Shown here: positions 18,888 to 34,246 of the stretch, one piece after another
How positions within the stretch are numbered: the first letter of the stretch is position 1
Layout: the number at the start of each line of letters is the position of its first letter
Assembly (NCBI GenBank): GCA_015522055.1
Contig: WAMZ01000157.1
Coordinates: forward strand, 1 to 34,266
Reading direction: 5' to 3'
DNA: 34,266 nucleotides
From: Candidatus Geothermarchaeota archaeon
Lineage (GTDB): Archaea; Thermoproteota; Nitrososphaeria; Geothermarchaeales; JDFR-13
Position numbers and translations under genes: made by a program
The notes under the pieces: model-generated
Seen by the model: only the letters and a program-made list of their open reading frames with translations
Told to the model about the DNA's origin: nothing
The model's database searches: none

Positions 18888-19775
18888 CTAGTTCTTCTCC
18901 ATCCACTTCCCATATAATACGTAGGATATTATCGATATTGCCATCCATGAAGTTATGTCGGTTATCCCCTCGATATATAGATCTCTTATGGTGGTCAGCC
19001 TTGTCAACCCCCAATATGCATTTACAGCGCCGTGGATACCGGAGGGCACTAGGATGTTGCGACTCATCCAGTAGCTATATGCTAATAACGCCCCAATGAA
19101 TATCGTGAATATAGGGTATATACCGATTTTAAATATGGTTATATGTGGTGGGTCTCCAAATATATCGATTTCCCCATACCCGAGTAGGAGCATGGCTGGG
19201 TAGTGCCAGAATCCCCAGATTAATCCTGTAAGTAATATTGATAATCCCTTTCCATACCTAGTTTTGAGCTTTTCTAGTAAAAATGCTCTCCAGCCCATCT
19301 CTTCCCCATAGGCATATAATGCGTTGATGGTTATGCTGGCTGTGTATCCATTCACGATTAGAAGGAGTAGTTTGATGTGTTGTGGAAGCTCACCTAATGG
19401 CTCTGGGAGTTCGATATTGGCCAGACCGGCTCCTGTTAAACCTCTGTAGACTACAAAGTAGATCCCAACTGTGAGTAGAACTATAGAGGGTGTCAATATA
19501 TAGAAAAATAATCCCCTCAAGTCTATCCTTAGGTTGCTTCTAATCCATTTCATAATGTCATATCCATACATCTTCATTACTAGTATACTGGCTGCCAAGG
19601 GGGTATACATGCGTAGTAATCCCCATGTTGGGACAAATATCAATATGTCTCCATCTGGGCTGGTGGAGAATCCAAATCCCATGATATAATAAAATATATC
19701 TATGATAGCTGCTAATCCATATGAAATTATTATAAAAAGTATTAACTGGTTTGGTGTCTTCATCTCCCCCTCCAT
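18888..19775 (-). CDS. CPBP (CAAX/Abi) family intramembrane metalloprotease
   Basis: 295 aa, multiple TM helices; EEMGWRAFLLEKL and GFWHYPAMLLLG motifs. Confidence 0.85.
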   Translation of the reverse strand: MEGEMKTPNQLILFIIISYGLAAIIDIFYYIMGFGFSTSPDGDILIFVPTWGLLRMYTPLAASILVMKMYGYDIMKWIRSNLRIDLRGLFFYILTPSIVLLTVGIYFVVYRGLTGAGLANIELPEPLGELPQHIKLLLLIVNGYTASITINALYAYGEEMGWRAFLLEKLKTRYGKGLSILLTGLIWGFWHYPAMLLLGYGEIDIFGDPPHITIFKIGIYPIFTIFIGALLAYSYWMSRNILVPSGIHGAVNAYWGLTRLTTIRDLYIEGITDITSWMAISIISYVLYGKWMEKN

Positions 19776-20545
19776 TGAGGCCTCCTCTTCTCTAGGAATG
19801 CCTTGATCCCTTCTTTAGTATCCTCAGTCTCAAATATATATTTGAATAGCTCCGCCTCGATCCGGAGGCCGGTGGATAATGGTGTTTCTAATGCATAGTT
19901 GATCGCCTCCTTTGCTATAGCTATGTGTATGGGGCTTTTTGAGACTATCTTTTCTATTATTCTCTCCACTTCCTCCTCTAGTTGGTCGTCGGGAACGACT
20001 TTATTGACGAGACCTAGCTTCTCAAGTTCATGGGGTGATACGAAGCTCCCCGTATATATTAGTTCCCGAGCTTTCTTATCACCTATTAATCTGGGTAGGT
20101 TCTGGGTTCCTCCTCCCCCTGGTATCAAGCCTACCCTGAGCTCGGGCTGTCCAAACTTGGCTGTCTCCGATGCGATAACTATGTCACAGAACTGGATGAG
20201 CTCGAATCCACCGCCTATGCAGTAGCCCCTTACCGCCGCTATGACAGGTTTGGGAATTTCCCTTATTCTCCTTCCTATGGCGTGGGCTGTTCCATATTCC
20301 CTAAGGAACTTGTCGAGTTCTTCGCGGGTAATGTCCTTGAAATAGTTTAGGTCGGCTCCTGCTGAGAAATGCTCCCCATCCCCCTTTATTACCACTACCC
20401 TTATCTCTGGGTCCTTGGCCGCTTTTTCAAGGCCCTCGATCAAATCCTTCCTAATATTTATGTCTAATGCATTGTATTTTCCCGGGTTACTTATGGTTAT
20501 ATAGGCTGTATGCCCCCTCTTTTCATAGGTAGCCTTACCAGGCAT
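19760..20545 (-). CDS. Enoyl-CoA hydratase/isomerase (crotonase family)
   Basis: 261 aa; GEHFSAGADLNYF oxyanion region, GYCIGGGFELIQFCDIVIAS and AKFGQPELRVGLIPGGGGTQNLPRLIG with both catalytic-position Glu residues. Confidence 0.93.
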   Translation of the reverse strand: MPGKATYEKRGHTAYITISNPGKYNALDINIRKDLIEGLEKAAKDPEIRVVVIKGDGEHFSAGADLNYFKDITREELDKFLREYGTAHAIGRRIREIPKPVIAAVRGYCIGGGFELIQFCDIVIASETAKFGQPELRVGLIPGGGGTQNLPRLIGDKKARELIYTGSFVSPHELEKLGLVNKVVPDDQLEEEVERIIEKIVSKSPIHIAIAKEAINYALETPLSTGLRIEAELFKYIFETEDTKEGIKAFLEKRRPQWRGR

Positions 20546-20556
20546 ATCACATCAAC

Positions 20557-21306
20557 CTAGCCAAGCTTCTTCAGGATTTCTAATTTATCGTTTCTCCTTA
20601 GTATCTCCAGCTCCTCCTTTGTCGGTGGTTCAGTCTGTGGCACTTCATCGGGTATATCGAGCTTGAAGCCGGTATTCTCTATTACCTGTTCAACCGTAAC
20701 TCCTGGATGTATACTTCTAAGCCTCATCCATCCCTCTTCGTTGAAGTCCATTACGCATAAATTTGTGACCACTAGTCTAGGGCCATTGAATGGCTTCAGC
20801 CCCCTATGCCCCTTGTATGAGTGGAAGTCGAGTCTCTCGACGAATACACGCTTATTATGGCTATGCGTCCATATATAGATATTCTTGGCTCTAGGTAGGT
20901 ATCCGAGGCCTATGGTGCCGGGTCCTCTTACCTTTGGTTTTTGCCAGTCCCCTATACATACCAGGTTTAGGCCTCCATATGGGTCTATCTGCATCCCCCC
21001 GGCGAAGAAGAGGTCTATATCTCCACTCTCCTCTAGGTCGAAGACATCCTCGAAGGTTATGAATGCATCACATATGTCTTTATATACCATGTAGTCACCC
21101 ATGTCCCATGGTATATTTCCAACTGGATTGACTGCGTATCCAAGGCTTAATATCGTTATATTAGGTGCATATAGCTCCTTTGCAAGTATTAGGGAGGCTA
21201 GGGGCACCCATGATGCGTTTCCAACTATAGTAAGCCATCCATCCTCTATCTCCCTACTAAATACACATGCCATCAATTCGGATGTAGAATACTCCATGAT
21301 CCTCAC
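20557..21306 (-). CDS. CoA-transferase family I beta-type subunit, IpdB-like
   Basis: 249 aa; HNKRVFVERLDFHS, LRSIHPGVTVEQVIENTGFKLDIPDE...PTKEELEILR matches the IpdB/GctB layout; the usual ExG catalytic glutamate appears absent (ITILSLGYAVNPVG). Confidence 0.82.
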   Translation of the reverse strand: MRIMEYSTSELMACVFSREIEDGWLTIVGNASWVPLASLILAKELYAPNITILSLGYAVNPVGNIPWDMGDYMVYKDICDAFITFEDVFDLEESGDIDLFFAGGMQIDPYGGLNLVCIGDWQKPKVRGPGTIGLGYLPRAKNIYIWTHSHNKRVFVERLDFHSYKGHRGLKPFNGPRLVVTNLCVMDFNEEGWMRLRSIHPGVTVEQVIENTGFKLDIPDEVPQTEPPTKEELEILRRNDKLEILKKLG

Positions 21307-22172
21307 CCTACTCTAAGGCTGTTAAGCTTATCCCAACCAATTACCTCGAGGTAATCCATATGGCTCTTCCCAGATACATATTTATCGATATATTCTCTGA
21401 AGCCATCCTCGGTCCTCGCCATCTTCACATACATCCTTAGATGCTCCTCATCCCTTCTATGTATCAAGTCGCTGCCAAGTGGGTGGCATGCAAACTGGAT
21501 GTTGACGACGGCGTCTACTAGGAATCCAGGTATAGTTACATCTCTATTCCTCCTCCTGATCTCTGTATGATCTACCAGCTTATCGCATGTCAGCACCACC
21601 TTCCTCGAGGCCTTGGCAAGCATCTTATCTGTGGCTATATTCCCTAGGTGGATGCCGTTTCCATATCTATCGGCTAGCTGTACATGTATGAATGCCACGG
21701 ATGGTCTTATGGGTGGCACCGTGACGTATCTCCTGCCATCATAGGGGCTGACCACCTCTTTATATAGGGGATTTACCTTGGGTAGGTCATTGTCATATCC
21801 GTAGGCTAGTGGTATGAAGGGTAGATTGGCGGCACCAGCCTTGAGACCAAAGCCCCAGAAAACCTCATCTATCTCTATGACCTTAAGCCTACCGCCCTCG
21901 ACCATCCTCCTAAATGATGGTGCTAGCCCCATCTCGGCAAAAGTCACGAATGGTGCCATTATCCTATCCACTTTGCCAGCTCCGATAAGTATGTCTACTG
22001 GGTATGTCCCCATGAATGAATATAGAGTTAGGCCCCCGAGATCCATATTTATGATCTCCCTAGCCACTGCAGAGGGTGTGTTGTAGGTTAATGAGCCGCC
22101 CAATGCGAGGTCGATGCCGTCCTCAACGAATTTCTCGACAGCCTCTTCTAAGGACATTGTCTTATCCTTCAT
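21303..22172 (-). CDS. CoA-transferase family I alpha-type subunit, IpdA-like
   Basis: 289 aa; EIDEVFWGFGLKAGAANLPFIPL, SPYDGRRYVTVPPIRPSVAFIHVQLADRYGNGIHLG, EDGFREYIDKYVSG; overlaps the beta subunit gene by 4 nt. Confidence 0.85.
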   Translation of the reverse strand: MKDKTMSLEEAVEKFVEDGIDLALGGSLTYNTPSAVAREIINMDLGGLTLYSFMGTYPVDILIGAGKVDRIMAPFVTFAEMGLAPSFRRMVEGGRLKVIEIDEVFWGFGLKAGAANLPFIPLAYGYDNDLPKVNPLYKEVVSPYDGRRYVTVPPIRPSVAFIHVQLADRYGNGIHLGNIATDKMLAKASRKVVLTCDKLVDHTEIRRRNRDVTIPGFLVDAVVNIQFACHPLGSDLIHRRDEEHLRMYVKMARTEDGFREYIDKYVSGKSHMDYLEVIGWDKLNSLRVG

Positions 22173-22511: not shown

Positions 22512-22778
22512 TTGGCAAATATTAAAGTGTCTGTTAAGGCTTTTCCTGTATTCAAGGATTTCGTTGATGTCAGTCTTGAGGAGGGCTCTACATTATCAGA
22601 TCTCGTTGATTATATGTCGAGGATGTATGATGAGTTTAGGGAGAATTACTTAGATGATAATGGATCCTTAGATGTGGATGTAGTAGTCATGGTTAATAAT
22701 AAGCCTGTGAGGGACATGAGTCTAGTTTTGTCCGATGGTGATAAGGTTTATTTTATTCCCCCAGTGGCCGGTGGATAA
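22512..22778 (+). CDS. MoaD/ThiS-family ubiquitin-like sulfur carrier
   Basis: 88 aa; beta-grasp pattern with VMVNNKPVRDMSLVLSDGDKVYFIPPVAGG and terminal Gly-Gly. Confidence 0.87.
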   Translation: MANIKVSVKAFPVFKDFVDVSLEEGSTLSDLVDYMSRMYDEFRENYLDDNGSLDVDVVVMVNNKPVRDMSLVLSDGDKVYFIPPVAGG

Positions 22779-22794
22779 TAGGCTTATCGATGAG

Positions 22795-23886
22795 TTATTC
22801 GATGAATAGGATTCTGTTTGCGGCTGCATCTGCTATAGCGACACTGAATCCAGCTATTCTACGTATCTCCCTACCTATCATCATTATCCTATGAGCCTTA
22901 TCCACATCTGTCACGGTCTTAATAACCAATCTATCGAGTTCATCTTCTAGGGACCTTATCTCAGGCATTATGGTCGTTACTTTGAATACCCTCTCCAAAT
23001 CCTTGTTTATGAAGGAGTGGACTGCTAGATTCTGCATCTCAATAGATTTCTCTGAGGCATCGCTGATCAATTCCTTTATCCTATCACTTAGGTCGTGGTC
23101 CTTTAGGGATAGGTAGTGCCTTGATATGTATATGCTATGATAGACTATCCTGTTTAAGTCCCTGGATGCTAAGACATATGACAGTAGTTCTCTCGTGGTC
23201 TTTATGCCTTTCTCCTCGGCTATCGCTGGATTGATGCTGCAGAGTGTAATGTTCCTTATCAATTTCCTATATATCCTTAGCATCTCACTCTCCCTATTTA
23301 CAACGTCTCTGGCTAGGCTGGTATCGTTATTCATTATAGACTCTATTGACTCTCTATGGGCCGTCACGGCTAGATCGTGGAGCTGCATCATCATCTCATC
23401 CAGGGTCTCTGGATATACATTGGAGGGGATCTGGTATACAAGATACTCAGAGTCGTCTCTCACGATCTCACTCCCCGGCATATCGAGCCGCATATCTCTC
23501 ATGAGCTGTTTAGCCTTGTAGTCTACACTTTCGCCGAGTTTTATAGCCACCCTATTGACTCCCTGCATATAGTATGTCAGTATCATGTATCTAAGTAGCT
23601 TTATATCCTTTACCTCCTCGAAGTTCAGCTCTACCCTCCTCTCCTGCTCTATACTCTCAAGCGGATAAATTCTCAGTGAGTATCCGTCTTCATTTAGGAG
23701 GAGCTTCGAACCCTTTTCTAAACCGTGTTTCTCCACCCACCACTTGGGTATAGTCAGTATATAACTACCTTTCTTTATAGACTGAAGGTTTCTGATTCCG
23801 GGTTTCTCAGGAATTATCCGCCCCATTCCATATAAATTATTCCCGAGTATCATTAATATATATAAAATATTATTACATGCTTCCAT
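22795..23886 (-). CDS. AbrB-like DNA-binding domain fused to PhoU-like domain
   Basis: 363 aa; RNLQSIKKGSYILTIPKWWVEKHGLEKGSKLLLNEDG (SpoVT/AbrB-like) followed by PhoU-type helical repeats. Likely start at internal Met 23826 (MGRIIPEKPG). Confidence 0.8.
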   Translation of the reverse strand: MEACNNILYILMILGNNLYGMGRIIPEKPGIRNLQSIKKGSYILTIPKWWVEKHGLEKGSKLLLNEDGYSLRIYPLESIEQERRVELNFEEVKDIKLLRYMILTYYMQGVNRVAIKLGESVDYKAKQLMRDMRLDMPGSEIVRDDSEYLVYQIPSNVYPETLDEMMMQLHDLAVTAHRESIESIMNNDTSLARDVVNRESEMLRIYRKLIRNITLCSINPAIAEEKGIKTTRELLSYVLASRDLNRIVYHSIYISRHYLSLKDHDLSDRIKELISDASEKSIEMQNLAVHSFINKDLERVFKVTTIMPEIRSLEDELDRLVIKTVTDVDKAHRIMMIGREIRRIAGFSVAIADAAANRILFIE

Positions 23887-23967: not shown

Positions 23968-25257
23968 ATGGCTACGTCTTCACAAGCCGCCGGAGGTAAG
24001 CTTGACTTTAAGGAGTTTGACCAGGCTAGACGGTATCAGGCTAGACTGGTTAAAGAATATTATGTAAAGATGTATAATGCTATAAAGAATGGTGCGAAGG
24101 TTGCCTATGCGTATGTGATGGCTAATCCGATAGAGCTATTAATGGTCTTTGACATTGTGCCTGTATATCCCGAGGTCACCAGTCTTCAGATATCCTATAA
24201 GGGTGGGGCGCCTGAACTCATTGGCGCCGCTGAAGAGTTTGGATACTCCACCGACTGCTGTGGATATGTTAAGATGGGTATCGGTGCCCTCCTGCGTGGT
24301 GGTAAGACGGTTATCGGCAATATCCCTAAGCCTGATCTATTATTCTTGGGTTACTCAGGTTGCCAGGTATATATACACTGGTGGGAGCAGCTTCAGTATC
24401 TATTTAAAGCGCCTGTAGTCACCGTCGATGTGCCGTATTACCGTGATTTTGATGGGCATGTCTATAATCATGATATTAAATATGTTACTAGGCAGTTGGA
24501 GGATGTTGTTATTCCTAAGTTGGAGGAGATTAGTGGGAAGAGGTTTGATGAGGAGAGGCTTAAGGAGATTGTTTATTATTCTAGGGAGGCTTGGAGGTAT
24601 TGGAGGGAGGCTATTCACATGGGTAAGCTGGTGCCTTCGCCATTGGACGCGTATTTCGAGGCGATATATTACATGTCTGTCATAACGCTTCTCCGGGGGA
24701 CCCCTGAGGCGGTAGAGTTTTATAAGTTCCTTCTGGATGAGCTTTGGAGGAGGTATGAGGCTGGGGTGGGCCCGACGGAGAGGGAGGACTTTAGGATAGT
24801 GTTTGAGGGTGTCCCCAACTATCCATTCTTCAAGCGTTTCTGGGGTCTATTTAAGCGTTGGAATGCTAGGGCTGTGGCATCGACGTATCCTAAGGTCGCT
24901 GGCTTGGTTGATGTGGGGGCGTTTAAGCTTGATCCTGAGAGGCCGATAGAGAGTCTGGCTGAGTATATGATTCATGCATATTGTAACTGGAATATGATTT
25001 ATCGGCTTAAACTCCTTGAGCAGTATGTCCACGAGTATAAGGCTGACGGCGTCGTCATACATTCTATTAAGAGTTGTAGAAGTTTCTCTATGGGGCATGG
25101 AGACCTAAGAGAGTATTTTGTGAAGGAGAAGGATATCCCTGCTCTCCTTATCGATTCAGACCATGTAGATCCAAGGTATTATGCCGAGGCTCAGCTTAGG
25201 AATAGGATTGATGCCTTCTTCGAGGAGCTTTCTATTAGGAAGGGGGTGGAGGTATAG
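23968..25257 (+). CDS. Benzoyl-CoA reductase / 2-hydroxyacyl-CoA dehydratase D-component, BcrB/BzdO-like
   Basis: 429 aa; FDIVPVYPEVTSLQ, YSTDCCGYVKMGIGALL, FLGYSGCQVYIHWWEQL, DGVVIHSIKSCRSFSMGHGDLRE; adjacent to two ASKHA ATPases. Confidence 0.85.
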   Translation: MATSSQAAGGKLDFKEFDQARRYQARLVKEYYVKMYNAIKNGAKVAYAYVMANPIELLMVFDIVPVYPEVTSLQISYKGGAPELIGAAEEFGYSTDCCGYVKMGIGALLRGGKTVIGNIPKPDLLFLGYSGCQVYIHWWEQLQYLFKAPVVTVDVPYYRDFDGHVYNHDIKYVTRQLEDVVIPKLEEISGKRFDEERLKEIVYYSREAWRYWREAIHMGKLVPSPLDAYFEAIYYMSVITLLRGTPEAVEFYKFLLDELWRRYEAGVGPTEREDFRIVFEGVPNYPFFKRFWGLFKRWNARAVASTYPKVAGLVDVGAFKLDPERPIESLAEYMIHAYCNWNMIYRLKLLEQYVHEYKADGVVIHSIKSCRSFSMGHGDLREYFVKEKDIPALLIDSDHVDPRYYAEAQLRNRIDAFFEELSIRKGVEV

Positions 25258-26061
25258 ATGGCTAAATACTATGTAGCTGGTATAGATGCTGGCTCGACAT
25301 ATACGAAGGCAGCGATAATGGATGACGAGAATAACTTGATTGGGACAGCTATTACAATGACTGGTGTCAGGATAAATGAGGCTGCCGACAAGGTTTTTGA
25401 GATGGTTTTGAGTAAGACCGGCTTATCACGTGACGATATTAAATTTGTTGTTGGGACAGGCTATGGTAGGTTCAAGATCACATTTGGTGATACCCAAGTT
25501 ACTGAGATCAGTTGCCATGCGAAGGGGGCCCACTACCTATTCCCTAATACACGCACCGTCTTGGATATGGGTGGACAGGATACCAAGGCGATTAGAATTA
25601 ATGAGAAGGGTGAGGTTATTGATTTCGTCATGAATGATAAGTGTGCAGCTGGCACGGGTAGGTTTATAGAAGGTGCTGCCAAAGCCCTTGGCCTGGAGCT
25701 TAGCCAAGTTGGCCCTATATCATTGACATCCAAGAACCCAACCAAGATTAGTAGTACATGTGCAGTCTTCGCGGAGAGCGAGGTGCTTGAGCAGCTTGCA
25801 TGGGGTCATAGTATAGAGGATATTCTATATGGTGTCCATCTATCCATAGCTAATAGAGCCATCGGGCTGCTAAGGAGGGTTGGGATTGTGCCGGAGATAA
25901 CGTTTACGGGTGGTGTATCCCTAAACGATGGTATGGCTAAGGCCTTGGAGGAGCTGTTGAAGATGAAGGTCAACCGTAGCCCACTCACCATGTACTGTGG
26001 AGCTATAGGCGCAGCCCTCTTCGCTAATGAAAAGGTTATGATTAGGCAGAAGGTTGTATAG
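25258..26061 (+). CDS. Benzoyl-CoA reductase ATPase subunit, BcrD/BzdP-like (BadF/BadG/BcrA/BcrD family)
   Basis: 267 aa; GIDAGSTYTKAAIM, VLDMGGQDTKAI, NDKCAAGTGRFIE, SSTCAVFAESEV, FTGGVSLNDGM. Confidence 0.9.
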   Translation: MAKYYVAGIDAGSTYTKAAIMDDENNLIGTAITMTGVRINEAADKVFEMVLSKTGLSRDDIKFVVGTGYGRFKITFGDTQVTEISCHAKGAHYLFPNTRTVLDMGGQDTKAIRINEKGEVIDFVMNDKCAAGTGRFIEGAAKALGLELSQVGPISLTSKNPTKISSTCAVFAESEVLEQLAWGHSIEDILYGVHLSIANRAIGLLRRVGIVPEITFTGGVSLNDGMAKALEELLKMKVNRSPLTMYCGAIGAALFANEKVMIRQKVV

Positions 26062-26078: not shown

Positions 26079-26879
26079 ATGGTTTATACTGTGGGGATAG
26101 ATGTTGGGACTAGGAATACTAAAGTAGCGATTATGGAGGATGGTTCCCAGATAGTGTATCTAGGTTTTAGGAAGACTGGATACGACTTTAACAAGGCTGC
26201 TAGGGAGGTGTTTAGGGAGGCGTTGGATTCGACAGGATTAAGGGAGGATGATGTAGATTATATTGTGGCTACTGGTTTCGGTAGATATAGAGTAGATTTT
26301 AGGGATATTAATGTGACCGATATTACTTCTGCGGCTAGGGGGGCGCATTTCCTATATCCCAATACAAAGACCGTACTGGATATAGGGGCTGGTAACACAC
26401 GTGTTAGTAAGATTGATGATAGAGGTAAGGTGGTCAAGTTTGCGTCTACAGAGAAGTGTGCAGCTGGTGGTGGAGGTTTCCTAGAGAAGATAGCATACTA
26501 TACTGGTTTCAAGATTGATGAGATTGGGAGGGTGGCTATTAAGTCTCAGAATCCTGTGGAGATCTCGACTGTATGTAGTGTTTTGGCGGAGTCCGAGGTT
26601 ATAAACTTGATTACTCAGGATGTCCCGATGGAGGATGTACTTATGGGTGCCCATCTATCTGTGGTTGGTAGGGTTATATTGACTGTTAGGAGGGTTGGTG
26701 TGGAGCCTGAGCTGACCTTGACGGGAGGCCTCGTGCTCAACCCAGCGGTTGTTAGGGCATTGAAGACTAAGCTTGGTGTCGATGTAAATGCATCTAGTGA
26801 TCTGTATTACGCTGGGGCTATAGGGGCGGCTAGGCTTGGATATATTAGGCTTGTTAAGAAGGGGCTGGTGAGGGTCTGA
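26079..26879 (+). CDS. Benzoyl-CoA reductase ATPase subunit, BcrA/BzdQ-like
   Basis: 266 aa; GIDVGTRNTKVAIM, VLDIGAGNTRVSKI, EKCAAGGGGFLEKIAYYTGF, STVCSVLAESEVINLI, LTGGLVLNPAVV. Confidence 0.87.
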   Translation: MVYTVGIDVGTRNTKVAIMEDGSQIVYLGFRKTGYDFNKAAREVFREALDSTGLREDDVDYIVATGFGRYRVDFRDINVTDITSAARGAHFLYPNTKTVLDIGAGNTRVSKIDDRGKVVKFASTEKCAAGGGGFLEKIAYYTGFKIDEIGRVAIKSQNPVEISTVCSVLAESEVINLITQDVPMEDVLMGAHLSVVGRVILTVRRVGVEPELTLTGGLVLNPAVVRALKTKLGVDVNASSDLYYAGAIGAARLGYIRLVKKGLVRV

Positions 26880-28042
26880 TGAGCCAGGTGGCCGCGCCAA
26901 CTACATTAGATATATTTAGGCAGTGGTATGAGGATTCATTTACAGACTTCAAGCTGGTTAGGGAGTGGAAGGATGTTAATGCATGGCACGCGCTGGGATA
27001 TTTTCCAGTATATTTCCCTGTCGAGTTGGCCGAGGCATTCGATACACTACCCGTTGCGCTCTATGGGGCTGAGGGGAGGATAAATCTAGATATAGCGATT
27101 GCACATACCCAATCATTTGTATGCACCATATGCAAAAGTGTATTCCAGCTTGGGGCGGAGAAGAGGCTAGACGCCTTCGATATACTTGTGTTCTCAAATA
27201 TTTGTGATGTGGCGCGCAACCTATCTGGGATAGTTAAGAGGAACCTCCCCGACAAGACGATAGTATATCTACATTACCCGATACATAATGACACTGAGTT
27301 GGCGGTTTCATACCTAGTCGATGAATATAGGAGACTTGTAAATATCTTGGAGGAAACTACGGGTATCAAGTATGATGAGGAGAGGCTTAGGGAGGCTATT
27401 AGGCTCCATAATGAGAAGAGGAGGCTGATTAAGATATTGATTGACCTCAGGAGGGAGAAGCCTTGGCTTGTGCCATTCACAGAATATTATATCGTGACGA
27501 AGGCCGCCTCGATTATGCCTGTTGATAAGTATAATAAGCTCCTGGAGAGATATATCGGTGAAGTTGTGAAGAGGGATGTGAGGCCTGCAGATAGGCTAAG
27601 GATCCTGGTGAAGGGTAATTTCTGTGAGCAGCCGCCTCTAATGTTTATGAAGACTATTGAGGATGCCGGTGCATATATAATTGAGGATGAGAGCCTGATA
27701 GGCCAATACTGGATAGGTGAGGTGTCTATAGAGGGTGACCCGTTGCTTGAGCTTGCGAAGGCCTATGTATCCAATGATGTGCCGCTGACAGTTAGGTATC
27801 ACCCCTCCTTGGATAAGCAGGAGTTTATTAAGCGTGAGATTAAGGAGAAGAATGCTGAGGGCGTTCTATTCCTATCGCCTAAGTTCTGTGAGCCAAGCCT
27901 ATATGACTATATCATATATAAGAAGGCATTGGATGAGATACACTTCCCATATCTACATCTAGAGTATGAGGAGACCACATCGAGCTTCGAGCACCTTAGG
28001 ACGATGGTGGAGACCTTCGTAGAGTCGATTATGTTCGACTAG
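26879..28042 (+). CDS. Benzoyl-CoA reductase / 2-hydroxyacyl-CoA dehydratase D-component, BcrC/BzdN-like
   Basis: 387 aa; HALGYFPVYFPVELAEAF, AHTQSFVCTICKSVFQLG, FSNICDVARNLSG, VKGNFCEQPPLMFMKTIEDAGAYIIEDE, FLSPKFCEPSLYDY. Start ATG overlaps the upstream stop. Confidence 0.85.
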   Translation: MSQVAAPTTLDIFRQWYEDSFTDFKLVREWKDVNAWHALGYFPVYFPVELAEAFDTLPVALYGAEGRINLDIAIAHTQSFVCTICKSVFQLGAEKRLDAFDILVFSNICDVARNLSGIVKRNLPDKTIVYLHYPIHNDTELAVSYLVDEYRRLVNILEETTGIKYDEERLREAIRLHNEKRRLIKILIDLRREKPWLVPFTEYYIVTKAASIMPVDKYNKLLERYIGEVVKRDVRPADRLRILVKGNFCEQPPLMFMKTIEDAGAYIIEDESLIGQYWIGEVSIEGDPLLELAKAYVSNDVPLTVRYHPSLDKQEFIKREIKEKNAEGVLFLSPKFCEPSLYDYIIYKKALDEIHFPYLHLEYEETTSSFEHLRTMVETFVESIMFD

Positions 28043-28168: not shown

Positions 28169-29503
28169 ATGAAGGTTGAGAGCTGGATATTTCAACCGGA
28201 GTATGAGTGTATGAAGCGGGATAAGCTGATGGAGCTCCAGGAGGAGAGGCTTAGGAAGCTCGTTGAGTACTGCTATAGAAACTCTCCATTCTATAGGAAG
28301 AGGTTTAAGGAGGCTGGTATAACGCCGGATGACATCAAGAGTTTGGATGACCTCAGTAAGATTCCATTTACCACCAAGGATGATATGAGGGATGCCTATC
28401 CCTATGGGATGTTGGCGACGGGTATCGATAAGGTGTTGGAGATCCATGCGAGTTCAGGGACTACTGGGAAGCCTACGACGACGTTTTATTCGCAGCATGA
28501 TCTAGATGTATGGAGTGAGGTGATGGCGAGGATATATGCGGCGGCAGGTACTAGGGAAGGTGATATTATACATAATGCATACGGATATGGCCTATTTACT
28601 GGTGGCCTGGGATTCCACTATGGAGCCCTGAAGATAGGGGCGGCCGTCGTCCCGGTCTCGTCGGGTGGGACTGAGAGGCAGTTAACCTTGGCTAAGGAGC
28701 TGGGTACAACGGTCCTATGTTGTACACCTACATATGCCATGTACCTTGCTGAGTATGCCAGGACTAAATTGGGGTGGGACCCTGCCAAGGAACTCAAGTG
28801 GAAGAGTGGTATATTTGGTGCCGAGCCTTGGAGCGAGAAGCTTAGGCAGAAGATCGAGGAGCAACTTGGGCTCGAGGCATTCGACATATATGGCTTGTCG
28901 GAGATAATCGGCCCAGGTGTCTCTGTTGAGTGTGGCGAGCATAATGGCCTCCATATATTCGAGGATCATTTCCTAGTTGAGGTTGTGGATCCTGCTACTG
29001 GTGAGCCTGTCGAGGAGGGTGAGACTGGTGAGCTTGTGCTTACGACATTGACTAAGGAGGCTATGCCTCTACTTAGATATAGGACAGGCGACCTTACAAC
29101 TTGGACTACCGAGGAGTGTAGCTGTGGTAGGACCATCGGTAGGATGGGTAGGATCCTCGGTAGGGCTGATGATATGGTTAAGGTTAGGGGTGTCAAGTTC
29201 TGGCCGAAGGCTTTGGAGGAGGCAATCCTAAGTGTTGATGGTGCATCTGGCAATTTCATCGCCAAGATAGAGAGGCCGAAGATTATGGATGTCTTGACTA
29301 TCGAGATCGAGCCTGATCCAGAGGTCTATGAGATGGTGGGGGGCGACCTCAGTAAGCTTGAGCCGCTGAAGAAGAAGATTATCGATAAGGTTAGGAACGC
29401 CATTGGAGTGACTCCGAATGTGGTTCTAAAGCCCGTTGGTAGTGTCCAGAGATTCACTGGTAAGGCTAAGAGGGTAGTCGATCTTAGGAAGCTTGGTGAC
29501 TAA
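28169..29503 (+). CDS. Phenylacetate/benzoate-CoA ligase-like AMP-forming enzyme (PaaK family)
   Basis: 444 aa; EIHASSGTTGKPTTTFYS, DIYGLSEIIGPGVSVEC, LLRYRTGDLTTWTTEECSCGRTIGRMGRILGRADDMVKVRGVKFWP. Confidence 0.92.
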   Translation: MKVESWIFQPEYECMKRDKLMELQEERLRKLVEYCYRNSPFYRKRFKEAGITPDDIKSLDDLSKIPFTTKDDMRDAYPYGMLATGIDKVLEIHASSGTTGKPTTTFYSQHDLDVWSEVMARIYAAAGTREGDIIHNAYGYGLFTGGLGFHYGALKIGAAVVPVSSGGTERQLTLAKELGTTVLCCTPTYAMYLAEYARTKLGWDPAKELKWKSGIFGAEPWSEKLRQKIEEQLGLEAFDIYGLSEIIGPGVSVECGEHNGLHIFEDHFLVEVVDPATGEPVEEGETGELVLTTLTKEAMPLLRYRTGDLTTWTTEECSCGRTIGRMGRILGRADDMVKVRGVKFWPKALEEAILSVDGASGNFIAKIERPKIMDVLTIEIEPDPEVYEMVGGDLSKLEPLKKKIIDKVRNAIGVTPNVVLKPVGSVQRFTGKAKRVVDLRKLGD

Positions 29504-29542: not shown

Positions 29543-30217
29543 ATGCTGAGGGTGGAGAAGCTTACGAAGAAGTTCGGGGAGCTAGTTGCATTGAATAATG
29601 TTGATCTAGAGGTTAGGGAGGGTGAGTGTAGGGGGATAATCGGGCCCAATGGAGCCGGTAAGACTACCTTATTTAATGTTATATCTGGCTTTATGAAGCC
29701 TACATCTGGCCGGGTCTTCTTCAATGGTATGGATGTGACTGGTTTCAAGCCTTATAGGCTTGTCTCTATGGGGATGGTTAGGACTTTCCAGATCGTTAGG
29801 GTGTTTAAGAACCTAACTGTATATCAGAATTTTCAGGTGGTGCTTGACGATCCTGATGAGCTTGTTAAAGAGATGGGGCTGTGGGAGAAGAGGGATTATA
29901 AGGCTATAGACCTCCCGTTTGGGGAGTTGAGGAGGCTAAGTATAGGGCTGGCCCTTGCTATGAATCCTAGGCTGCTTCTGTTGGATGAGCCTTTCTCTGG
30001 CCTCAGCCCCAAGGAGTCTATGGAGCTAGTCAATGTTATAAAGGGGTTGCATGAGAGGGGGGTTACACTCGTTGTTATCGAGCATAAGCTTAAGGAGCTC
30101 TTTACGTTGGCTGATAAGGTTACGGTCTTGAGTAGTGGTAGGGTTATATTTGAGGGGACCCCTGAGGAGGTTGTGAATGACTCTAGGGTCATTGAAGCTT
30201 ATTTGGGTACTGGTTGA
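29543..30217 (+). CDS. Branched-chain amino acid-type ABC transporter ATPase (LivG-like)
   Basis: 224 aa; GPNGAGKTTLFNVISGFMKPTSG, LPFGELRRLSIGLALAM, LLLLDEPFSGLSPKES, EHKLKELFTLADKVTVL. Confidence 0.92.
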   Translation: MLRVEKLTKKFGELVALNNVDLEVREGECRGIIGPNGAGKTTLFNVISGFMKPTSGRVFFNGMDVTGFKPYRLVSMGMVRTFQIVRVFKNLTVYQNFQVVLDDPDELVKEMGLWEKRDYKAIDLPFGELRRLSIGLALAMNPRLLLLDEPFSGLSPKESMELVNVIKGLHERGVTLVVIEHKLKELFTLADKVTVLSSGRVIFEGTPEEVVNDSRVIEAYLGTG

Positions 30218-30238
30218 ATCCGTTTTTGGGGATGGCTA

Positions 30239-30931
30239 ATGAGGGTATTGGATATTGAGGATTTGAAGGCTTATTATGGGAAGGCAATCGTGCTTAGAGG
30301 GATAGATATCTTTATTGATGAGGGTGAGACGGTCGCGATTCTAGGGCCGAATGGGGCTGGTAAAACCACCTTGCTCAAGAGTATATTGGGCCTCGTCTAT
30401 ACAGAGGGCTCTATCTCCTTCTTCGGCCGTGATATAACTAGGCTGAAGACGAGTGAGAGGATTAAGATGGGTATAGCTATATGCCCTGAGGGGAGGCATC
30501 TATTCCCAAATATGACTGTTGAGGACAACCTTATACTAGGCTCTAGGGGTAATGATTATAGGGATAAGTTGGAGTTTGTCTATAGCCTCTTCCCAGAGAT
30601 AGAGCGTAGGCGTAGGAATCTATGTAAGAATTTGAGTGGCGGGGAGCAGCAGATGGTCGCGATTGGGAGGGCGTTGATGGCTGAGCCTAGGCTTCTGTTG
30701 ATGGATGAGCCCTCGATGGGCTTGGCCCCGATTGTTATTAATAGGATTAGGGATGCACTTCTTAGGATTAGGGAGGAGACGAATCTAAATATTTTGATGG
30801 TTGAGCAGAATATCAAGCTCGCATTCGAGGTATCGGATAGGATATATGTGCTTGTTAAGGGAGATATAGTTGGTGAGGGTACTACCGAGTCATTGAGGGG
30901 GTTGGAGAAGCAGTATTTCGAGCAGATATAA
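30239..30931 (+). CDS. Branched-chain amino acid-type ABC transporter ATPase (LivF-like)
   Basis: 230 aa; GPNGAGKTTLLKSILGL, CPEGRHLFPNMTVEDNL, LSGGEQQMVAIGRALMAEPRLLLMDEPSMGLAPI, MVEQNIKLAFEVSDRIYVL. Confidence 0.93.
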   Translation: MRVLDIEDLKAYYGKAIVLRGIDIFIDEGETVAILGPNGAGKTTLLKSILGLVYTEGSISFFGRDITRLKTSERIKMGIAICPEGRHLFPNMTVEDNLILGSRGNDYRDKLEFVYSLFPEIERRRRNLCKNLSGGEQQMVAIGRALMAEPRLLLMDEPSMGLAPIVINRIRDALLRIREETNLNILMVEQNIKLAFEVSDRIYVLVKGDIVGEGTTESLRGLEKQYFEQI

Positions 30932-30938
30932 ATAAATT

Positions 30939-31955
30939 TTAGGGAGCCGTATATAGTTTCCTCAGCCTCTCATATATTCCGTGGGGCATTGTTATAGCTA
31001 TAACGATTAATAGGATATATAGTATTATGTCGTCGTTGAGTGGGAAGGCTGGCGGTATGTAGGGGACCAAATATACTTTCAGTACCCAGTATTTTAGGAG
31101 GTATATTAGGAAGCCGCCTATCACTGGCCCTACTATACTTCCAAGCCCACCTATAACCACGGCTAGTATTATGAGTAGCATGAGGGGTACGTCGAATAGG
31201 TCGGGTGAGACCGTGATTCTATAGTGGACTAGTAGTGCTCCCGATAGGCCTGCGAAGAAGGAGCTGACACCCATCGCGAAGACCTTATATAGATATATAT
31301 TTATTCCTAGTGCCTCAGCCAGTGTATTGTCCTCCCTGATAGCTATTAGTGTCAGGCCAAGCTTGCTGTTCTTTATCCCATATAGGATTGCGAAGCATAT
31401 GATCATGAATGCTAGGCTCACTATATATTTTCCGAATGTATCCTGTGCTATTGCTTTCCCTAGGCCTACGGAGAATCCCTCCTCACCGCCGAATAGGTCC
31501 TTGAATACATAGGTTGCCTTGATGAATAATAGGGGTAGTATAGCTGTAACTAGGGCGAAGTACCACCCCTTTAGTCTAAGGGTTATCAATCCAATCGCTA
31601 CACCGAATATTGCTGCTACTACTCCTCCTAGGAAGATTGTGAGTGGTATCGGTAGCTCGGGTATATTGGCTAATGGCGATAATATTGTGCCCTCGAATCT
31701 ACTCGGTACATGTAGTAGTGCTGTGACGTATCCGCCTATTCCTATGAATATTGTGTGGCCCAGGTTTACCTCCCCGACGAGGCCTGTTAGGAAGTCCCAG
31801 CTTATTGAGAAGACTATGAATATAAATGTGAGCCCCAGGATATATAGTAGTGTTTCTGGGAGGAATATGGGTATTACGGCCATTACCATTAGGAAGCCTA
31901 TTAGGTATGATAGGTCGCTGCTCTGCATCCTCCAAAACCTCTCTATCCTCTTCAT
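30939..31955 (-). CDS. Branched-chain amino acid-type ABC transporter permease (LivM-like)
   Basis: ORF called to 32033; likely start is ATG 31955-31953, overlapping the LivH stop (ATGA). Multiple TM helices; GHTIFIGIGGYVTALL, REDNTLAEALGINIYLYKVFAMGVSSFFAGLSGALL. Confidence 0.9.
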   Translation of the reverse strand: MKRIERFWRMQSSDLSYLIGFLMVMAVIPIFLPETLLYILGLTFIFIVFSISWDFLTGLVGEVNLGHTIFIGIGGYVTALLHVPSRFEGTILSPLANIPELPIPLTIFLGGVVAAIFGVAIGLITLRLKGWYFALVTAILPLLFIKATYVFKDLFGGEEGFSVGLGKAIAQDTFGKYIVSLAFMIICFAILYGIKNSKLGLTLIAIREDNTLAEALGINIYLYKVFAMGVSSFFAGLSGALLVHYRITVSPDLFDVPLMLLIILAVVIGGLGSIVGPVIGGFLIYLLKYWVLKVYLVPYIPPAFPLNDDIILYILLIVIAITMPHGIYERLRKLYTAP

Positions 31956-32818
31956 TCTTCCACCCCGTAGAGGCCTGTGGGCTTTATTATTAGTATTACT
32001 ATGATTATGGCTAATGCTATGAACTCTGACCACCTAGCTCCTAGTAGAGTAGTGGTGCCTATGTATATGAATCCAATTATGAATGATGATATTATGCTTC
32101 CCTTTACGCTCCCCAAGCCTCCGAGTATGACTATAGCGAATGCGAGTATTAGTGAGTTGAGGATCTGGAAGGGGTTTGCGGCATACATTTGTGAGTAGAG
32201 TGTCCCACTCAATGCCGCTAAGATAGCGGATATAAATATGGTTACCGCGAATATCTTGTTAACATCTATCCCTATTAGGATCGCCCCCTCGGCGTCCTGA
32301 CTCGCCGCATTTATCTCCTTACCCAGCCTAGTACGCTCTATGAATAGCCATAATGCACCGATGGTTGCGATTGAGATGAGTAGTATCACTAGCCTAAGGA
32401 TAGGTATCGTTACACCAGCTATGCTTAGGGTCCCGCTTATCATCCTCGGATATGATAAGCCAAACTCTCCATAGGTTAGTAGTATCACCTGCTCTATTAT
32501 GAGTGCCAGGGCTAGGGTGACTATTATTGTCATGACCTCATTCTTGATGACTGGATATATAATTATGTAGTATGCAATGAGCGAGAATAGACCTACGGCT
32601 AAAATACTTAATATAGTTGATGTTATTGGGTCGAGGTTCAGCTGCTGCATTATAAATATGCCTATGTAGGCGCCCATCATGAAGAATGCTCCGTGAGAGA
32701 AGTTTAGGATCCTTGATACACCGAATATCAGGGTGAACCCAGATGATATGAGGGCTAGGACGCCTCCGAAGGTCGCACCATATAATAATATAGTTAATAT
32801 GGTGTTTACATCGACCAT
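31952..32818 (-). CDS. Branched-chain amino acid-type ABC transporter permease (LivH-like)
   Basis: 288 aa; GVLALISSGFTLIFGVSRILNFSHGAFFMMGAYIG, LAFAIVILGGLGSVKGSIISSFIIGF. Confidence 0.92.
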   Translation of the reverse strand: MVDVNTILTILLYGATFGGVLALISSGFTLIFGVSRILNFSHGAFFMMGAYIGIFIMQQLNLDPITSTILSILAVGLFSLIAYYIIIYPVIKNEVMTIIVTLALALIIEQVILLTYGEFGLSYPRMISGTLSIAGVTIPILRLVILLISIATIGALWLFIERTRLGKEINAASQDAEGAILIGIDVNKIFAVTIFISAILAALSGTLYSQMYAANPFQILNSLILAFAIVILGGLGSVKGSIISSFIIGFIYIGTTTLLGARWSEFIALAIIIVILIIKPTGLYGVEE

Positions 32819-32920
32819 CTATATCCCCAACACTATCTTGATTCGGCTTTCCAGAATAAATTATCCATAATATATCGATATAATGTATAATAAAAAGTTG
32901 GTTGTGACGAGCTTATATGC

Positions 32921-34246
32921 TTAGAACCATGGAGGCTCGATCATCTCTGCATTCTTAATCTTTCCTCTTATTACGTATTGCTTACCGCCTTGCCACTGGG
33001 AGATCCAGTTCCTGACGTAGTTGTCTCCCCATACTAGGTCGTGGTCGAATTTATTCTCGTCACCCGGTGGGTAGAATGCAATCGTCCTCGTTAGATTGAT
33101 CGGGTTATCTGGATTGAATTTCTCTAGATATTGTACAACTACATCTGGGTTGAATGGGTCTTCCACACCATCGTCATGCGCCATCTCAACAACCTTCTTG
33201 AATAGGTATACGGCGTCGTATGCACCATATCCCTGGTGGGCCTCTGGTGGATGGCCATAGGCCTCCTCATAATTCTGTATGAACTTCCTGCACATATCTG
33301 TTGGTGGTGCTGTATTTACTACGCCGCCGTCAGCTAGGAATATGTAGCCCTCGGCAGCCCCTTCGGTAGCCTCATAGAACCCTAGGTCTAGGGCAGCGAG
33401 GTCATGGCCGGCTAGTAGTATCGGTAGCTTTAGGTTGGCCCACTGCTTAACCATAACGTCTCCGGTACCAGCTATCGCCAATATGGGTACGACGACTTGG
33501 ACACCCATGTCGTGAGCCTCGACTAGGAGGGGTTCATACTCGGTATATCCCCTGCCTACCTTGGCATCCTTGGCTATGGTTATGCCCCTCTTATCTAGCT
33601 CCGGCTGTAAGAAACTCATTACTGCATCTGTCCATATATGCTCATCCCTAATTATGTATATCTTACTAACGTCATATCCCTTCTCCTCAAGCATGTCGAG
33701 CATGTCGGCTAGGTCCCACGCGAATGTCGCACCATTATTCTGTGTGATCCTGAACCAATACTTATACTTGTCGTACTCGTCATGTACCTTGGCTGGGTGT
33801 GCTGGTGACGATGCATCGGCTAGGAAGGGCATCTTCAACTCGGCCATGGGCTCCATCATCGCTAGCATAATACCGCTGGAGAATCCTCCTGTCATGAAGT
33901 CGGCTTTCTCAACGGTTACCAGTCTCCTGAACTCGGATGTAGCTACATCGGGGTTCAGCTTAGTGTCACCGACTACCAGCCTCACGGGCATGTCTAGTAT
34001 TCCACCGGCCTGGTTTATCTCTCTTATGGCTAGCTCTGCGGCGTTTCTCTGTACACTACCCTGCTTAGTTGCCATTGGGGCTATTACCCCGATTACCACC
34101 TCCGTCTTCTTAGGAGCTGTTACGGCTGGTCTACTAGTCATACCAGCATAGTAGCCTACCCCGGCGCCTACTACGAATGCGACCCCCGCCGTGACTGCAA
34201 GCTTTAGGAAATCCCTTCTTCCAACCTGTCCACCTTCCTCAGACAT
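32921..34246 (-). CDS. Liv-type ABC transporter substrate-binding protein with Tat-like signal
   Basis: 441 aa; N-terminal GRRDFLKLAVTAGVAFVVGAGVGYYAG twin-arginine signal, type I periplasmic binding fold (IGVIAPMATKQGSVQRNAAELAIREINQAGGI). Confidence 0.9.
   Translation of the reverse strand: MSEEGGQVGRRDFLKLAVTAGVAFVVGAGVGYYAGMTSRPAVTAPKKTEVVIGVIAPMATKQGSVQRNAAELAIREINQAGGILDMPVRLVVGDTKLNPDVATSEFRRLVTVEKADFMTGGFSSGIMLAMMEPMAELKMPFLADASSPAHPAKVHDEYDKYKYWFRITQNNGATFAWDLADMLDMLEEKGYDVSKIYIIRDEHIWTDAVMSFLQPELDKRGITIAKDAKVGRGYTEYEPLLVEAHDMGVQVVVPILAIAGTGDVMVKQWANLKLPILLAGHDLAALDLGFYEATEGAAEGYIFLADGGVVNTAPPTDMCRKFIQNYEEAYGHPPEAHQGYGAYDAVYLFKKVVEMAHDDGVEDPFNPDVVVQYLEKFNPDNPINLTRTIAFYPPGDENKFDHDLVWGDNYVRNWISQWQGGKQYVIRGKIKNAEMIEPPWF

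Follow-up and report, generated by a model that had tools for sequence, protein, structure and literature searches.

Two adjacent genes of an uncultured archaeon were found to encode a CoA-transferase-fold alpha/beta pair that lacks the catalytic glutamate of true CoA transferases and lies next to the genes of a benzoyl-CoA reductase (BCR). Judged from sequence, the pair belongs to a separate uncharacterised clade common to a few soil and marine bacteria, and its reading as something other than a canonical CoA transferase is supported. It probably serves the BCR pathway as a C–C hydrolase or decarboxylase. We favour, tentatively, the reading that it acts on an acyl-CoA of that pathway, where the reaction would most likely be hydrolytic C–C cleavage. 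The analysed stretch of 34,266 nucleotides (hereafter the window) corresponds to contig C157 in a metagenome-assembled genome (MAG) of 1.30 Mb that is 75% complete. The genus was sampled by this and two congeneric MAGs labelled as Nitrososphaeria or Candidatus Geothermarchaeota, and the three genomes are all fragmented and 72–75% complete.

The initial annotation had described an IpdA-like, an IpdB-like and a crotonase gene in one unit at 19760–22172, and all three ORFs were found at exactly these positions on the minus strand, namely the A subunit (21303–22172, 289 aa), the B subunit (20557–21306, 249 aa) and the crotonase (19760–20545, 261 aa). The A and B genes overlap by 4 bases, the gap from B to the crotonase gene is 11 bases, and a fourth minus-strand gene, assigned by Pfam to a CAAX-type membrane protease (18888–19775), overlaps the crotonase gene by 16 bases and is probably functionally unrelated to the triad. 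Past a MoaD/SAMP-like ubiquitin-fold gene (22512–22778) and a regulator-like gene whose product has AbrB/MazE-like and PhoU domain matches (22795–23886, minus strand), a divergent series of plus-strand genes encodes a BCR subunit B-like protein (23968–25257; TIGR02260, 324 bits, below the cut-off of 487), a BcrA/BzdQ-like ATPase/activator subunit (25258–26061) and a second, BcrD-like ATPase subunit (26079–26879), both by NCBIfam, a BCR subunit C-like protein (26879–28042; TIGR02263, 269 bits, below the cut-off of 421), a PaaK-type aryl-CoA ligase (28169–29503; TIGR02155, 515 bits, below the cut-off of 646) and two ABC ATPases (29543–30931), of which the first has a C-terminal domain of branched-chain-amino-acid transporters. 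The two ATPases probably form one ABC transporter with two BPD_transp_2 permeases and a periplasmic binding protein encoded on the minus strand (30939–34246). TIGR02260, TIGR02263, TIGR02259 and TIGR02261 were among the best matches of the window bcr genes, each below its cut-off; with two dehydratase-like subunits, two ASKHA ATPases and best matches of the Bcr type, the reductase has the composition of a class I benzoyl-CoA reductase.

The order of A, B, crotonase and CAAX protease genes, as well as the wider arrangement of triad, MoaD-like, PhoU-like, bcr and ligase genes, recurs in the two congeneric MAGs, and the triad unit adjoins bcrBADC, paaK and ABC transporter genes in all three genomes. 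Identity to the congeners is 70–72% for the A subunits and 87–88% for the B subunits. This shared neighbourhood in three species-level genomes, at that level of A-subunit identity, makes it very improbable that the pair is unrelated to the BCR genes and serves amino-acid or fatty-acid breakdown as a chance neighbour, even though the triad points away from the bcr genes, from which the MoaD-like and regulator-like genes separate it, its fourth gene encodes a CAAX protease, and bacterial relatives of the pair were found in varied catabolic clusters. As a separate observation, a COX1-family protein gene (595 aa), not seen at the corresponding place beside the triad in the window, adjoins the triad in both congeners (L008:12326-15285 and L009:12468-14255); NCBIfam gave no match for the L009 copy, and the L008 copy is followed by a cytochrome-c-domain gene, possibly reflecting a nitric oxide reductase-like or oxidase complex.

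Pfam CoA_trans matched both subunits (5e-17 for A and 1.6e-12 for B), and ECH_1 matched the triad crotonase (1e-73). By single-sequence search against the PDB, the A subunit matched GctA with 99 bits, IpdA with 93 and AibA with 83, and the B subunit matched GctB with 88 bits, AibB with 65 and IpdB with 60. The similarity to IpdAB, the COCHEA-CoA hydrolase with which steroid degraders cut a cholesterol ring, is therefore genuine, but by raw score it ranks second for A and third for B, the first being glutaconate CoA-transferase (GctAB, 1poi), which shares the fold and the subunit sizes of the window pair. The mean identity of the B subunit was likewise 37% to Gct-type sequences versus 30% to IpdB. 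AlphaFold models built from three sequences for each subunit reached pLDDT values of 38 and 49, too poor for inspection of the active site.

The active-site columns of 56 aligned A+B pairs were compared; 30 of these pairs form the Gct-type clade. At the column of GctB Glu54, all 30 Gct-type pairs have Glu, whereas the window B subunit has Leu55, as do both congeners, within an invariant ILSLGYAVNP stretch devoid of acidic residues. The IpdB of R. jostii has Gly57 in place of this glutamate (PMC5380842). The opposite pattern holds in the A subunit: at the acidic column of IpdA (the Glu of E-M-D-E), which is defined by crystal structures since 6coj and 6co6 differ by a Glu-to-Ala change exactly there, the Gct-type pairs have N, H, Q, M or L and never Glu, while Glu is found in the window (Glu103, within the motif EIDEVFWGFGLKAGAANLPFIP) and in both congeners. 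The site reads DE in the window and SQ in 1poi, with S-N or S-H in most relatives. Within the window's own clade this column varies, with Gly in Variovorax and Ala in Paracoccus; the acid is not universal there, so that the catalytic role of Glu103 is putative.

Could the pair still transfer CoA by an altered mechanism, with another residue or a ternary complex in place of the glutamate, and so activate an aromatic or dicarboxylic acid? The closest PDB match of both subunits, glutaconate CoA-transferase, and the greater mean identity with Gct-type sequences speak for this reading, but we consider it quite improbable, given that the glutamate invariant in the Gct clade is the residue that forms the CoA anhydride in CoA transferases (PMC5380842), that residues 49–67 of the window B subunit include no acidic residue, and that the cluster already encodes a PaaK-type ligase. 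Gct-type transferase identity itself was ruled out by the missing glutamate together with an approximately unbiased (AU) test, in which placement of the window pairs inside the Glu-bearing Gct clade was rejected (p = 0.001). The earlier proposal that the pair is not a CoA transferase was supported as regards a canonical one: the glutamate is missing, the IpdA-type acid is kept, and membership of the glutaconate CoA-transferase clade is rejected by phylogeny. The window genes will probably carry a CoA-transferase annotation, a label that, given the missing glutamate, is probably wrong for the whole of their clade.

The tree was computed from the 56 A+B pairs with active-site columns removed, the non-archaeal sequences being drawn solely from plasmids and PDB chains. 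The pairs of the window genus grouped with Rhizobium ACO-34A (support 99/91) and then with Variovorax, Paracoccus and R. opacus (98/92), and both the IpdAB clade (100/100) and the Glu-bearing Gct clade (100/99) were separate from them. AibAB did not group with the window pair either, but its branch is very long. Monophyly of the window pair with IpdAB was not formally rejected for the combined subunits (AU p = 0.067; p = 0.123 for the wider clade), so that kinship with IpdAB is conceivable. Trees of A or B alone were weak and neither favoured nesting in Gct; grouping with IpdAB was allowed for A alone (p = 0.33) and disfavoured for B alone (p = 0.043).

A similar split between the subunits was seen for diagnostic columns, defined as residues that never vary in IpdAB but are rare among Gct-type proteins: 9 of 28 were present in the A subunit and 0 of 20 in the B subunit, which has ILSLGYAVNP instead of the [TS]DGEA loop of IpdB. 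The resemblance to IpdAB claimed in the initial annotation thus holds for A and fails for B. Among the motifs that had been aligned by eye, E[IMLA]DE and GL.A.A..LPF.P discriminate indeed, being found in 6 of 6 IpdA sequences and 0 of 30 Gct-type A subunits, whereas H....D..GN, HPGVT, FVE..D and PT..EL..[IL]R are common to both groups. Compared directly with IpdAB (6co6, 6con and 6coj), the window pair shares the fold, the two adjacent genes, the loss of the transferase glutamate, the acidic residue of IpdA (EMDE or EIDE) and the G and LPF.P pocket motif in A, but differs in its identity of only about 30%, in its separate clade, and in a unit without an IpdC or EchA20 partner that has BCR instead of steroid genes next door; no IpdC-like gene was found among the annotated ORFs of the window. 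Orthology to IpdAB was accordingly not upheld, the pair lying outside the IpdAB clade with a B subunit that has none of the IpdB-diagnostic residues.

AibAB, a 3-methylglutaconyl-CoA decarboxylase (5mzw), likewise has the Gct fold without the transferase glutamate. A decarboxylase of this type would act through an enolate and without transferring CoA, taking CO2 from an enoyl-CoA that ends in a carboxylate, for example glutaconyl-CoA late in the BCR pathway; glutaryl-CoA or glutaconyl-CoA is an expected late intermediate of benzoyl-CoA breakdown. Against the window B subunit, moreover, AibB outscores IpdB. The residue in place of the glutamate is Cys56 in AibB and Leu in the window, and since AibAB still decarboxylates with Cys56 of B changed to Ala, Ser, Asn or Val (PMC7756340), Leu is compatible with decarboxylation. 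Having lost the same glutamate and tolerating these replacements, AibAB provides the main rival to hydrolytic cleavage, although we regard it as unlikely: AibA has Gly at the column of Glu103, and the window pair does not group with AibAB in the tree, the branch of the latter being very long.

The third member of the triad fits the steroid module poorly. The triad crotonase is 28% identical to an EchA20 from a steroid cluster, and its best PDB match was a 3-hydroxypropionyl-CoA dehydratase (5zai, 225 bits). Both positions that we take, from established knowledge of enoyl-CoA hydratases, to be the hydratase glutamates are occupied by Glu (GGGFE and GQPE), and the sequence GQPELRVG is found without the GP[KR].G motif that replaces the second glutamate in MenB and BadI. 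EchA20 identity was ruled out by the low identity and the presence of both glutamates, and this part of the proposed module was abandoned. The protein is instead a probable enoyl-CoA or dienoyl-CoA hydratase by its sequence, and a role on the reductase product like that of Dch or BadK would fit better than that of EchA20; this role is putative, as no family model supported it and the Dch model (TIGR03189) was not among its 25 best NCBIfam matches.

A candidate for the ring-opening step was found elsewhere in the genomes. Of the four crotonase-domain proteins in the window genome, one of 312 aa with a C-terminal zinc ribbon (L056:146-1084) gave similar scores with the models of MenB (132 bits), Oah (129 bits) and BadI (125 bits). 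The GPRVG of its SPGPRVG sequence aligns with GPKVG of MenB, and its best plasmid matches, which include annotated BadI proteins, are 35–37% identical. Counterparts with 89–92% identity were found in just the two congeners (L080:3685-4611 and L081:87-1025), in one of which (G002, L080) the gene is head to head with a short-chain dehydrogenase/reductase (SDR) gene that scores 226 bits against the BadH model, less than the cut-off. Next come an AOR-family gene and an operon for a 2-oxoacid:acceptor oxidoreductase. Orthologous SDRs with 86% identity are encoded in the other two genomes on contig pieces. The genus thus resembles the BadK/BadH/BadI route of Rhodopseudomonas palustris (cyclohexenecarboxyl-CoA hydratase, dehydrogenase and ring-opening hydrolase) in encoding a BadI/MenB/Oah-type crotonase beside a BadH-like SDR, and the triad crotonase could be the hydratase, but its counterparts are all below the NCBIfam equivalog cut-offs. 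The R. palustris route is not known to use a CoA-transferase-fold pair. It is more likely that the ring is opened by this crotonase than by the pair, and the initial suggestion of an alternative to Oah/BzdY is weakened.

A comparable set was found in a genome of another family of the class (G040, L089:1-17000), where bcrC is 52% identical to the window subunit C. Its bcr cluster is headed by a gene similar to the window PhoU/AbrB-like regulator and includes a benzoate-CoA ligase above the cut-off (487 versus 375 bits) as well as crotonase, BadH-like SDR, 2-oxoacid oxidoreductase and periplasmic binding protein genes. G040 yielded no relative of the window A subunit; this genome being 79% complete, the absence is no more than suggestive. 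Together with the BadI/MenB/Oah-type crotonase in three genomes, the BadH-like SDR beside it in one and a triad crotonase unlike EchA20, these features argue against the pair being a genuine relative of IpdAB and opening the ring of the BCR product by hydrolysis in place of Oah/BzdY. The bcr genes next door, the IpdA motif with Glu103, the 9 IpdA-diagnostic residues and the AU values for the combined subunits and for A alone would favour that role, which the B subunit disfavours, and we hold it to be improbable. Among the papers listed by literature searches on Geothermarchaeota and aromatics, or on BadI in archaea, none concerned the locus by title or abstract.

Under the favoured reading of hydrolytic C–C cleavage, a class I CoA-transferase-fold pair in which the glutamate that accepts CoA in true transferases has been lost would bind an acyl-CoA from the neighbouring BCR pathway in the usual groove. 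With Glu103 of the A subunit possibly serving as acid/base, a beta-keto or vinylogous acyl-CoA would undergo enolate chemistry that most likely ends in C–C hydrolysis as in IpdAB, while the triad crotonase would hydrate the dienoyl-CoA or enoyl-CoA product of the reductase and the BadI/MenB/Oah-type crotonase encoded elsewhere would open the ring itself. We infer the role of Glu103, the substrate, the C–C hydrolysis and the link to the BCR pathway from these comparisons. A bolder proposition is that the pair represents a third branch of the fold in catalytic terms, distinct from GctAB, AibAB and IpdAB, and cleaves a C–C bond in an acyl-CoA, alicyclic or already ring-opened, of an archaeal BCR pathway; this is conceivable but doubtful. 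If the pair proves to be a C–C hydrolase or decarboxylase, the CoA-transfer fold with its two documented exceptions would gain a third branch, and anaerobic aromatic degradation in uncultured Geothermarchaeota-type archaea would gain an extra step.

The search of 398 genomes of the phylum gave B-subunit matches in 65, and the best 30 places were examined. In other families of the phylum (L046, L048–L050, L052 and L053), another CoA-transferase-fold clade has ED[TV]C, with Cys at the column of the IpdA acid, and Val where GctB has its Glu, so that this clade, too, is without the transferase glutamate. A related glutamate-less pair was found near phosphosulfolactate synthase genes on actinobacterial plasmids (L019:4845-9754 and L058:1974-7730), perhaps in the context of coenzyme-M-dependent alkene metabolism.
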